This document shows, piece by piece, positions 57,497-63,544 of a stretch of DNA of 64,000 bases (position 1 is the stretch's first letter; every line of letters begins with the position of its first letter). The DNA lies in the NCBI GenBank assembly GCA_015067635.1, contig SVMA01000004.1, positions 1 through 64,000 of the forward strand, given 5' to 3'. The stretch comes from Oscillospiraceae bacterium (lineage in GTDB: Bacteria; Bacillota; Clostridia; Oscillospirales; Oscillospiraceae). The notes below the pieces were generated by a model. The model did not search any database. It worked only from the letters and a program-made list of their open reading frames with translations, and had not been told where the DNA came from. Both the position numbers and the translations under genes were made by a program.

Positions 57497-57817
57497 TTGG
57501 ACACAAAAAAAGAGGACAAAAAATTGAAGCGGCGAATTCAGGACGGCAAACTCACACAGGCAGACGTAGCACGGCGATTGGCCGAACTGGCCTTTGGAAA
57601 GGCCAACGATTGCGTACGGTTGGTCCTGGGTGAAAATGTGGCGCTGGAGGGTCTGGATCTTAGCCTGCTGACAGAGCTGAAGCGCAATGAAAAAGGAACA
57701 CTGGAGATTCGTCTGGTGGATCGGCTGAAGGCTCTGGAGCTGCTGGCGACCATGGCCGACCGGGACGGTACGGATCTGGAATCCTTTTTGCAGGCCATGC
57801 AGGGGGGTGAGCCATGA
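57497..57817 (+). CDS. Phage terminase small subunit-like protein
   Basis: TTG start after GAAAGGAG; IRLVDRLKALELLATMADRDGTDLESFLQAM, position 4 bp overlapping TerL. Confidence 0.65.
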   Translation: MDTKKEDKKLKRRIQDGKLTQADVARRLAELAFGKANDCVRLVLGENVALEGLDLSLLTELKRNEKGTLEIRLVDRLKALELLATMADRDGTDLESFLQAMQGGEP

Positions 57818-59067
57818 CCTACCGTGCCTTTTCCCCCAAGCAAAAGACGGTGCTTTCCTGGTGGATTCCGGGGAACGAAAATTACGAAAAGGAAGCCATT
57901 GTCTGTGATGGGGCGGTTCGGTCCGGCAAGACCCTGAGTATGGGGCTGTCCTTCTTCCTGTGGGCGATGAGCTGCTTTGACGGGATGCGCTTCGGGGTCT
58001 GCGGAAAGACCATTGCCTCTCTGCGGCGAAACGTGCTGTCAGAAATTCTGCCCCGTTTGGGCGGTATGGGTGCCACCTGGAAGGAGAAACGGACGGAAAA
58101 TCTGGTGACGGTAACCTTTCACGGACACCGCAATCAGTTTTACATCTTCGGCGGACGGGACGAAAGCTCCGCAAGCCTGATCCAGGGTATCACCTTCGCC
58201 GGGGTTTTGCTGGATGAGGTGGCGCTGATGCCCAGATCCTTCGTGGAGCAGGCCTGTGCACGGTGCTCGGTGGCGGGAAGCCGTCTGTGGTTTAACTGCA
58301 ATCCGGCAGGGCCGAACCATTGGTTTTACAAGGAGTGGATCCTGGAGAGTGAGAAGCGAAACTGTCTGCATCTGCATTTTACCATGGAGGATAATCCTTC
58401 CCTGAGTGATGCCATCCGTCAGCGGTATCAAAGGCTGTATTCCGGCGTGTTTTACCGACGGTTCATTTTGGGACAGTGGGCACAGGCAGAGGGAAGGGTC
58501 TACGATTTCTTTGAGCCGGATATGGTAAGACCTGTGCCCACGGGGACATTTGAAAAGTGGTACATTTCCTGTGATTACGGTACGGTCAACCCCACTTCCA
58601 TGGGTTTATGGGGTCTGCAAAAAGGGGTCTGGTACCGGGTAAAGGAATTCTACTTTGATTCCCGGGAGAAGCAGCGGCAAATGACGGATGAGGAATATGC
58701 CTCGGCTTTGGAAAAGCTGGCAGGAAACAGGAAAATCACAGCTGTGGTGGCAGACCCTTCGGCGGCCAGCTTCATGGAGACCCTGCGGCGTCACGGCTGG
58801 GTGGTTCAGAAGGCGGAAAACGATGTGCTGTCCGGCATCCGATTGACGGCAGACTGTCTGAAATCCGGGAAACTGGTTATCTGTGAGGGATGTACGGATC
58901 TGCTGCGGGAGATGGATGCCTATGTCTGGGATTTGGACAGCGCTTCCAGAGATCGGGTAAAAAAGGAGCACGACCATGCTATGGACGAAATGCGGTATTT
59001 TGCTGCAACCGTGCTTGGTAAAAAATCCGACAGCTTTGTGGCTTGTACCGTAGAGCGACGGAAATAA
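57814..59067 (+). CDS. Phage terminase large subunit
   Basis: Walker A-like CDGAVRSGKT, Walker B GVLLDEVALM, nuclease acids ISCDYGTVNPTS and VVADPSAAS. Confidence 0.92.
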   Translation: MTYRAFSPKQKTVLSWWIPGNENYEKEAIVCDGAVRSGKTLSMGLSFFLWAMSCFDGMRFGVCGKTIASLRRNVLSEILPRLGGMGATWKEKRTENLVTVTFHGHRNQFYIFGGRDESSASLIQGITFAGVLLDEVALMPRSFVEQACARCSVAGSRLWFNCNPAGPNHWFYKEWILESEKRNCLHLHFTMEDNPSLSDAIRQRYQRLYSGVFYRRFILGQWAQAEGRVYDFFEPDMVRPVPTGTFEKWYISCDYGTVNPTSMGLWGLQKGVWYRVKEFYFDSREKQRQMTDEEYASALEKLAGNRKITAVVADPSAASFMETLRRHGWVVQKAENDVLSGIRLTADCLKSGKLVICEGCTDLLREMDAYVWDLDSASRDRVKKEHDHAMDEMRYFAATVLGKKSDSFVACTVERRK

Positions 59068-59083
59068 GAAAGGAGCAAACACA

Positions 59084-60235
59084 TTGAAACGAAAACAACA
59101 GGAGCATCCCCTGGCGGCAACTGCCTGCCAGCTCCGCAGCGGACAGAGCCATCCCTTTGGCGCGTTGAAGGGCTTTGTTCCTCTGGGAGCCGGTGAAGAG
59201 CAGATATACCGCCAACTGCGGGAAGCCATTCCGGTTCTGGATGCGGCAGTGGGGAAGCTGGTGCGTCTCAGCGGCGGCTTCTCGGTGCATTGCCGGGGAA
59301 AAGAAAGTCAGGAAAAGCTGGAAAAATTTCTGCGGGAGGTTCCCTGCGGAAGAGGGCAGGTGGGCATTGACTGCTTTTTATCCGGTTTTACGGACAGCCT
59401 GCTGATCTACGGGCGGTCCGTAGGTGAAATGATTCTGGACCGGGGTCATCTGAAGGCGGTTTGCTGGGGCGATGTGACCCAACTGCAGATCGTGGAGGGA
59501 GAAAATCCGCTGGATGTGGAGCTTTGGGGACCGGACAGCAAGGGACACATGGGTGCGCTTCCTTATCAGCATTTACTGCTGTTTTCCACCTTGAATCCCG
59601 AAGCGGCACATCCCTACGGCGTGAGCTTATTCCGCGGAATGCCCTTTCTTGCGGATATCCTGATGAAGATCTATGCCACCGTCGGCTCCAACTGGGAACG
59701 GGCAGGCAATGTGCGTTACAGCGTGATCTGCAAGGGAAATGAGCAGTTGGATCCCTCTGCGGCACAGGAACGGGGTCAGCAGGTGGCAAGGGAATGGAGC
59801 CGTGCCATGGAGGATGCCAAAACCGGTACGGTACGGGATTTTGTAGCCGTGGGGGATGTGGAGATCAAGGTGATCGGCAGCGATTCTCCCATTTTGGATT
59901 CTCAGGTGCCGGTGCGGCAGATTCTGGAACAGCTGGTGGCAAAAACCGGTCTGCCGCCCTTCCTTCTGGGCTTAAACTGGAGCACCACAGAGAGGATGAG
60001 CACACAGCAGGCAGATATTCTGACCTCAGAGCTGTGGGCATTGCGCCGGACGGTAGAACCGATCCTGCGGAAAATCTGCAAAACCTACCTTGCTCTGGAA
60101 GGGCTGGATGACCGAGTGGATATCCAATGGAACGACATCAGCCTGCAGGACATCACCGAGGAGGCAAAAGCTGAGCTTTACAGGGCACAGGCTCTGAAAT
60201 ATCGGGCAGAAGCAAATGAAGGAGGAAACCAATGA
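59084..60235 (+). CDS. Phage portal protein
   Basis: Size and position after TerL; LDSQVPVRQILEQLVAKTGLPPFLLGLNWSTTERMSTQQADILTSELWALRRTVEPILRKI. Confidence 0.85.
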   Translation: MKRKQQEHPLAATACQLRSGQSHPFGALKGFVPLGAGEEQIYRQLREAIPVLDAAVGKLVRLSGGFSVHCRGKESQEKLEKFLREVPCGRGQVGIDCFLSGFTDSLLIYGRSVGEMILDRGHLKAVCWGDVTQLQIVEGENPLDVELWGPDSKGHMGALPYQHLLLFSTLNPEAAHPYGVSLFRGMPFLADILMKIYATVGSNWERAGNVRYSVICKGNEQLDPSAAQERGQQVAREWSRAMEDAKTGTVRDFVAVGDVEIKVIGSDSPILDSQVPVRQILEQLVAKTGLPPFLLGLNWSTTERMSTQQADILTSELWALRRTVEPILRKICKTYLALEGLDDRVDIQWNDISLQDITEEAKAELYRAQALKYRAEANEGGNQ

Positions 60236-62203: not shown

Positions 62204-62556
62204 CCCTGTCAGAGCAAATTTGTGCCCAGGCACAGCTACTTACCCAGGATTCCGAAACGGTGAATCTGCCCATGCTGGAGCTTCTTTGTCATGCGGCAGA
62301 AAATTCCCTCCTGCAAAAGCTACGGGAGGGAATCACGCCGGAGGACTGCAAGGCCGATTTTGTGGCGGCTGCCAGTCTATATGCGCTGGCGGCTCTGTCG
62401 GAAGTGGATGAGGTGGCGCAGATAGAGCAGCTTCAGGCCGGAGATCTTACGCTCCGACGGGGCAGTACCGATTCTGCCGCCTGCTGTCTGCGGTATCAGG
62501 CGCAAATGCTGATGGCACCTTATTTGAAGGATTGCTTTTCTTTCCGGGGGGTGTGA
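62200..62556 (+). CDS. Phage head-tail connector-like protein
   Basis: 118 aa helical protein overlapping capsid stop; positional inference. Confidence 0.5.
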   Translation: MTLSEQICAQAQLLTQDSETVNLPMLELLCHAAENSLLQKLREGITPEDCKADFVAAASLYALAALSEVDEVAQIEQLQAGDLTLRRGSTDSAACCLRYQAQMLMAPYLKDCFSFRGV

Positions 62557-62558
62557 CC

Positions 62559-62897
62559 GTGCGGAAATTGGTGGATCGGATATTCCGGCGGTACGGTGCG
62601 CCGGTGGTGGTGATCACGTCCTATGATTATGTCACCATCTACGGCTTTGCCGAACACACCGCTACGTCTGCCCGAAAATACGTGCTTCCGGAGCATTCTC
62701 CCCTGGGAGAATTGCCCCGGGGGCATTATCTGATGCTGCTGCCCCTGACGCTTGTGCTGAAGCCGGGAGATTCCCTGATGTACAGCAACCACTGGTATGT
62801 GGTACGCCGGGCAGAGAAGGTGTATTTTCGGGACGAAGCGCTGTATTACTGCTGTCTGTGTGAGGAGAAGGGAGAGCCGGATCTATGGGGAACTTAA
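62559..62897 (+). CDS. Phage head-closure/neck-like protein
   Basis: About 112 aa, GTG start; positional inference. Confidence 0.45.
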   Translation: MRKLVDRIFRRYGAPVVVITSYDYVTIYGFAEHTATSARKYVLPEHSPLGELPRGHYLMLLPLTLVLKPGDSLMYSNHWYVVRRAEKVYFRDEALYYCCLCEEKGEPDLWGT

Positions 62898-63544
62898 GAT
62901 TAGACAATCTGGTTTCGTTTTTGAACGCCAACGGTGTGCGGTCAGAAGAAGCTTATCCCGGAAAAGCGATTACACGAATCGTTTCACCGGTTGCGGCCTT
63001 AAGTGTGGACTGCGTGAACCAGGAAAACCGCACGATCACGGTGCTGGCAGAAATTCTGAGTCCTCAGGATGAGGGTGGATATCCTTGTCAGGAAAAGGCG
63101 ATGGATGTTTGCAACATTTTGTCGCAGGCCGGTGGGATTTGCCGGACAGGAAGCTGTCAGTTTTTGAATAAGGCAGGCGTATTCCGGGTACCTGTGTGGG
63201 CGGTTTTTCATATGGACGACACCCTGCCCTATACACTGAGAACCGGCACGCTGCTGCTTCCTTATGCCTGCGGTTTTTCCGCTTATCAGGAAACGGACAA
63301 AACGATTACGAGCATCCACGACGCACCGTGGGTCTTTACGGTGGAGGAGCTGTTTCCCTGGGGCGTGATGGACACAATGGAAGTCCAGGAGCCCTTTGAG
63401 CTGATCCTGCACCGCAGCGCCGGCAACGAGGAATACACCGGCTGTGTATGGACCAAACGGAAGCGTATCGCGGAAAAAGACGGAATCCGACAAATCCGGG
63501 AAGGTATCTCAAACAAGCGCTTTCTCACCTCCGGTGATGAATAA
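62885..63544 (+). CDS. Phage neck/tail-completion-like protein
   Basis: 219 aa, last gene of the cassette; positional inference. Confidence 0.4.
   Translation: MGNLRLDNLVSFLNANGVRSEEAYPGKAITRIVSPVAALSVDCVNQENRTITVLAEILSPQDEGGYPCQEKAMDVCNILSQAGGICRTGSCQFLNKAGVFRVPVWAVFHMDDTLPYTLRTGTLLLPYACGFSAYQETDKTITSIHDAPWVFTVEELFPWGVMDTMEVQEPFELILHRSAGNEEYTGCVWTKRKRIAEKDGIRQIREGISNKRFLTSGDE

Follow-up and report, generated by a model that had tools for sequence, protein, structure and literature searches.

Gene content of the locus

The subject of this study is a cassette of phage-type head genes within a 64,000-nucleotide stretch of DNA (the window; positions 1-64000 of contig 25) from an Oscillospiraceae bacterium of the genus Faecousia, whose source assembly comprises 1.55 Mb at 86% completeness. 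Eight plus-strand open reading frames (ORFs), overlapping or abutting one another, extend from 57479/57497 to 63544 and encode a small terminase (TerS), a large terminase (TerL), a portal protein, a putative protease, a major capsid protein, and three smaller proteins, g6, g7, and g8 (Table 1). The gene nagB lies to the left; on the right come an S1-domain gene in convergent orientation and then divIC and yabQ. No integrase, repressor, replication, holin, or lysin gene was found within or beside the window cassette, and no integrase or regulatory module lay next to the capsid genes at the loci inspected in the window and in congeners. Housekeeping genes flank the cassette at every inspected locus, as expected of chromosomal endogenisation. 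The initial annotation of this DNA had described eight tightly packed ORFs with intact frames, intact ATPase and nuclease residues in TerL, a terminator behind the cassette, chromosomal genes (nagB and the S1-domain gene) on both sides, and the absence of the five gene types named above; ORF layout, family matches, and a motif check agree with this description, and the terminator proved to be bidirectional.

Table 1. Coordinates of the cassette and its associated elements in the window, with the evidence for each assignment.
Feature	Coordinates	Strand	Evidence
Leader inverted repeat AGTTGC-N10-GCAACT, then T-run; cis element before TerS	57435..57456	+	Conservation, covariation, carrier distribution
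TerS, small terminase	57497..57817	+	PF03592, match only from profile position 50; survey of TerS N-termini
TerL, large terminase	57814..59067	+	PF03237, PF17289, phrog_2 (E 1e-50); ATPase and nuclease motifs intact
Portal protein	59084..60235	+	phrog_30703 (E 1e-145)
Putative prohead maturation protease	60232..61125	+	phrog_16951 (E 4e-98); DHxW and KEVSVG motifs; partly by position between portal and capsid
Major capsid protein	61178..62203	+	PF25209 (E 2e-15), phrog_3922 (E 5e-105)
g6, head-tail connector-type protein	62200..62556	+	Position and conservation with full clusters; no Pfam match
g7, head-completion/neck-type protein	62559..62897	+	Position and conservation
g8 (219 aa), predicted fusion of tail terminator (N-terminal) and tail tube (C-terminal)	62885..63544	+	hhalign, AlphaFold2, Foldseek
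Bidirectional intrinsic terminator closing the cassette	63552..63577	.	Sequence

TerS probably starts at the TTG at 57497, as annotated initially, with a conserved ribosome-binding site and the leader hairpin in front of it. For g7 a GTG start is likely, and 62532 could also open the ORF. The ATPase and nuclease motifs are present in 47-48 of 48 Faecousia TerL sequences. Among 52 distinct protease sequences, all carry the KEVSVG-type motif and 46 carry DHxW. The PF03354 profile detected no terminase in the source genome; the matching terminase family is PF03237.

Distribution of the cassette

A capsid search recovered the gene from 34 of 60 sampled congeners, with amino-acid identities of 76-88% and no internal stops, and the same eight-gene order was seen wherever a congener contig was long enough. 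Most of these genomes are metagenome-assembled, and absence from a single genome may reflect incompleteness. The capsid gene is single-copy in each genome except one assembly, which holds two different copies (G025:C99 and G025:C170) representing either a real duplication or a mixed bin. Beyond the genus, at least 563 stretches in GTDB genomes encode relatives, the best 80 of which include Oscillibacter, Flavonifractor, Pseudoflavonifractor, Intestinimonas, and Dysosmobacter. A broad survey of the order yielded a relative in 11 of 119 genomes, with one copy per genome.

The chromosomal site varies. Cassettes occur in unrelated neighbourhoods, at trmB-mnmG and metK (G055/G011), ruvC-ruvA-ruvB (G002), noc (G054), and nagB/S1 (the window), with one site common to groups of related species. 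The nagB operon is conserved in the nearest relatives with no phage genes beside nagB, and the synteny of nagB, head cassette, and S1 gene that had been envisaged for relatives does not hold: congeners carry the cassette elsewhere.

Full clusters in relatives and repeated loss of the tail

The complete chromosome of Oscillibacter valericigenes Sjm18-20 contains, between housekeeping genes, a cluster of ~14.4 kb in which the same head genes are followed by tail genes. These begin with a tail terminator, a sheath (PF04984/PF17482), a tube, and two small genes placed where those for a chaperone and a tape measure would be expected, continue with a LysM/XkdP protein, hub, spike, gp25, baseplate J, and gpI, and give way to a set consisting of a coiled-coil protein, a holin-size protein, and a CHAP endolysin. 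In a related cluster, Pfam confirmed baseplate J (E 5e-54) and a LysM/DNA_circ_N protein; several other tail assignments in full clusters were made by position and by homology between clusters. Full contractile-tailed clusters with head, tail, and lysis genes, and without integrase or replication genes, are present in Oscillibacter, Flavonifractor, Pseudoflavonifractor, and others; besides Sjm18-20, isolates that carry one include Pseudoflavonifractor gallinarum DSM 107456 and Flavonifractor sp. An92.

In a tree of TerL, portal, and capsid, Faecousia is sister to the full-cluster lineage L121. L118, which retains both sheath and hub, is the sister of a clade without a sheath, and this clade adjoins the full cluster L116 (support 0.81). 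L122, also without a sheath, is sister to the full cluster L120. These positions of reduced and full clusters imply at least three separate events of tail loss or reduction, none of which removed the head. Judged by gene content and phylogeny, the Faecousia cassette derives by reduction from a ~14 kb chromosomal cluster, and the tail deletion maps to the base of Faecousia or earlier.

Purifying selection and vertical inheritance

Among about 74 loci (duplicates counted), apparent interruptions were confined to the portal gene of one low-coverage genome (L056/L111) and to g7 at two loci (L047 and L063). Because L056 and L111 are one assembly at 2.4x coverage, the portal break is likely a sequencing error. 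To avoid the underestimation of dS that affects NG86 at high divergence, pooling was restricted to close pairs. Seven such pairs gave dN/dS values of 0.026 for capsid, 0.070 for both TerL and portal, 0.086 for TerS, 0.092 for g9 (a gene described below), 0.115 for protease, 0.147 for g7, 0.155 for g8, and 0.240 for g6. In syntenic pairs, dS and dN/dS of the cassette were similar to those of neighbouring housekeeping genes. Across 22 genomes, the cassette tree followed the rpoB tree (Mantel r 0.898, p 0.0002), the two sharing 8 of 19 splits against 0.2 expected and a maximum of 3 in 2000 relabellings. These comparisons indicate that the cassette is inherited vertically under purifying selection and is not decaying.

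An ordinary defective prophage in decay would be phage-derived, would have lost its tail, and would be missing from some congeners, all of which is true of the cassette. Intact frames, low dN/dS, dS equal to that of neighbouring host genes, and a host-congruent tree speak against it, and we consider this explanation extremely improbable. The frameshifts and relaxed selection that the initial annotation had named as marks of a decaying prophage were not seen, dN/dS ranging from 0.026 to 0.24. The same annotation had offered a choice between a very recent deletion and a head kept by selection. The selected head is upheld by the wide occurrence, intactness, purifying selection, and rpoB co-diversification of the cassette; the recency is not, given a deletion at or before the base of the genus. 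Phage-derived proteins, endogenisation, and mostly vertical inheritance with co-diversification with the host, the marks of a gene transfer agent (GTA) that can be sought in sequence (PMC9662315), are all found here. The published definition also asks that those proteins form particles, that the particles hold mostly random host DNA and deliver it to other cells, and that the element exceed the capacity of the head.

TerS and packaging specificity

In Oscillibacter and the nearest outgroups, TerS carries an N-terminal extension of ~40 residues at the position of a helix-turn-helix. All Faecousia TerS proteins examined lack it, in keeping with the late start of the PF03592 match in the window protein (Table 1), and it has also been lost, apparently independently, in the Flavonifractor group. 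By this comparison, Faecousia has lost the part of TerS expected to pick out viral DNA. A TerS without a detectable DNA-binding domain is common to known GTAs (PMC11841831), and Faecousia shares this trait, which is an indirect sign of random packaging.

This feature bears on whether the cassette is a satellite such as a capsid-forming phage-inducible chromosomal island (PICI), which borrows the tails of a helper phage. Like such islands, the cassette encodes its own packaging and capsid proteins but no full tail, and it occupies several chromosomal sites within Faecousia. Unlike them, it has no integrase, regulator, or replication gene beside it, is inherited vertically, and shows no sign of preferring its own DNA, its TerS having lost the selecting domain. 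In six of eight carriers checked, moreover, the cassette TerL is the sole Terminase_6 protein of the assembly, which gives no hint of a resident helper phage of this type and leaves room for infecting helpers. The hijacking of tails from a resident helper, proposed initially, thus finds no support, and we judge a satellite to be very improbable.

What remains of the tail

Aligned with the Oscillibacter-type tube profile, g8 matches over its C-terminal half (hhalign P 96%, E 3e-9). An AlphaFold2 model of g8 built from the alignment (pLDDT 90.5) retrieved in Foldseek the neck proteins of phages 812 and phiCD508 and the T5, lambda, and Hcp tubes, at a modest best E of 1e-3. The cassette had been described as capsid-only, with tail genes absent; this needs correction, given the terminator/tube fusion and a truncated XkdP-like gene (g9) in 18 of 61 Faecousia genomes. 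Several Faecousia also retain a decoration gene, and the window has neither this gene nor g9. On these assignments, selection has preserved the components that a head needs to package DNA: TerS, TerL, portal, protease, capsid, two connectors, and a terminator/tube ring.

In three Faecousia loci the terminator part of g8 is an ORF of its own, ~111-118 aa long (L080:5815-6168, L089:11707-12054, and L112:7181-7513), which means that the fusion is not universal in the genus. Comparison of the terminal proteins of L066 and L067 with terminator/tube fusions gave no significant result.

A conserved leader hairpin

A 22-nucleotide inverted repeat (NGTTGC-N10-GCAACN) lies ~39 nucleotides upstream of the TerS start in nearly every Faecousia cassette, whatever its chromosomal site, and in some relatives outside the genus. 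It keeps a fixed distance in 48 distinct sequences, 39 of which have a T-run after it. The core GUUG/CAAC is invariant, partly owing to the search pattern used. Two-sided changes numbered 71, against 21.7 in shuffled sequences and far fewer in slid controls, and affected 8 of 12 pairs, with outer and inner pairs varying jointly. In a set of 22 genomes, seven lacked the cassette and none of these had the exact pattern; among the 15 carriers, it stood upstream of the cassette in 10, and one carrier had a single extra match away from the cassette. The element travels with the cassette and, by its covariation, behaves like an RNA hairpin. No Rfam family matches it. LoaP binds a hairpin with a UNCG tetraloop (PMC12691694); the leader loops are not generally UNCG, and we set aside a LoaP-type antitermination hairpin. 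Expression of the Caulobacter GTA depends on anti-termination (PMC11150451), which we note as a parallel only.

A probable GTA-like packaging operon

We conclude that the cassette is probably a GTA-like operon for DNA packaging that the host has domesticated and passes on vertically, and that it is what remains of a ~14 kb Oscillospiraceae cluster with a contractile tail. In the mechanism we propose, a signal acting through the leader hairpin, as a terminator, an attenuator, or a protein-bound RNA, would switch on the operon, and capsids would assemble and be matured by the protease. With a TerS that lacks a DNA-binding domain, TerL would start on host DNA with little specificity and fill the head, which g6, g7, and the g8 ring would close; this ring may double as a minimal nozzle. 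Genes so far unrecognised would have to supply adsorption and lysis, unless these functions are dispensable.

Several observations weigh against this conclusion. A hub profile that matched in six of six full-cluster genomes found nothing in 61 Faecousia genomes, and baseplate J was detected in just three of the 61, results that leave room for a divergent or podovirus-like tail tip. With the hub absent, baseplate J nearly absent, and no lysis gene in the cassette, delivery is unexplained, and the GTA label would be premature, as our searches did not turn up delivery genes of known type. Some near-complete congeners lack the cassette (12 of 20 genomes at ≥90% completeness carry it), and its changes of chromosomal site are unexplained.

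The closest working model, by analogy, is FpGTA of Faecalibacterium, which forms 40 nm particles containing 8.4-8.9 kb DNA and has a separate tail/lysis operon (PMC12946183). By description, FpGTA I/II (FpGTA I at CP030777:2536737-2546346) and the cassette are alike in belonging to gut Oscillospirales and in having a compact chromosomal TerS-TerL-portal-capsid operon without replication genes, a TerS without an obvious DNA-binding domain, and a short or no visible tail. They differ in that FpGTA I is reported to have a scaffold gene and a separate tail/lysis operon, with particles and DNA shown, whereas the Faecousia cassette has a protease gene and the terminator/tube fusion, and the hub and baseplate J profiles revealed no second locus.

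This precedent raises the possibility, which we hold only tentatively, that the cassette is one of at least two loci of a split GTA, with adsorption and lysis genes of a different, short-tailed type elsewhere in the genome. The two FpGTA operons lie ~125 kb apart (PMC12946183), and the constraint on capsid, TerL, and g8 suggests complete, usable particles. The hub is absent from all 61 genomes, with a positive control, and baseplate J from 58, which counts against a second locus, but a podovirus-like tip would escape these searches; nor does the leader pattern mark any site other than the cassette, save for the extra match in one genome.

Rather doubtful, in our estimate, is a head domesticated for a use other than delivery, in which tailless, DNA-filled capsids would serve, for example, in stress-linked DNA release or as a DNA-trapping or competition particle. 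Tail genes were lost at least three times while packaging genes were kept, the hub and baseplate J searches found no adsorption apparatus, and the terminator/tube fusion could simply close the head. Yet the open-access literature offers no known precedent, and connectors plus a tube exceed the obvious needs of a sealed capsid. Returning to the GTA-like packaging operon, we offer as a speculative extension that Oscillospiraceae harbour a GTA-like family, so far undescribed, whose contractile-tailed clusters were pared down repeatedly to a tailless, non-specific packaging head; the head itself would be selected, under the control of a dedicated leader hairpin, for packaging and not for injection.

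Other systems share part of this profile. The ~14 kb full cluster of Faecousia relatives, a TerS without a DNA-binding domain, and vertical inheritance recall RcGTA and other alphaproteobacterial GTAs, but RcGTA keeps its tail, whereas Faecousia has lost it and the full relatives have a contractile-type sheath. PBSX of Bacillus subtilis is GTA-like and packages random 13 kb pieces of host DNA (PMC7667829). It too has a Gram-positive host, and its tail genes, of contractile type, are similar to their counterparts in the full clusters; Faecousia cassettes, in contrast, lack sheath, hub, baseplate, and lysis genes.

Taken together, the relatives with and without tails suggest an unrecognised family of domesticated GTA-like particles in common gut bacteria. 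GTAs have been documented mainly in Alphaproteobacteria, and FpGTA, the first GTA-like element from the human gut, was published only in 2026. GTA-type packaging has also been described in Onthomonas, another member of the Oscillospiraceae, with no operon reported there (PMC12946183), and the Faecousia-type family could explain such packaging for which no locus is known. The family has several hundred relatives across GTDB species, cultured members of Oscillibacter, Flavonifractor, and Pseudoflavonifractor among them, and so provides concrete loci and strains; the natural series from full cluster to tail-free head makes the purpose of a lone head directly testable.

Additional observations

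The three baseplate-J genes of Faecousia occur in related genomes (G023:C1, G036:C1, and G039:C1; L074-L076), on a contig other than that of the cassette, and may be part of a different prophage or tail element. No convincing direct repeats were found at the cassette ends, and large antisense ORFs over neighbouring genes were dismissed as compositional artefacts. In the IMG/VR contig IMGVR_UViG_2728369350_000003 (54,950 bp), a full cluster is followed immediately by an integrase-like gene on the other strand (L193:18256-19428); this gene is probably part of a separate inserted element and possibly part of a phage carrying the head of the cluster.

The cluster is also carried by public records named "Bacteriophage sp." (L070-L073; GenBank MT835769, MT835508, MT836604, and MT835952) and by viral contigs of IMG/VR (L157-L236). 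MT835508 is plainly bacterial chromosome, with an rnf operon on one side and a ribosomal-protein operon on the other. Many cluster loci are filed as viruses in public collections, and virome statistics are affected.

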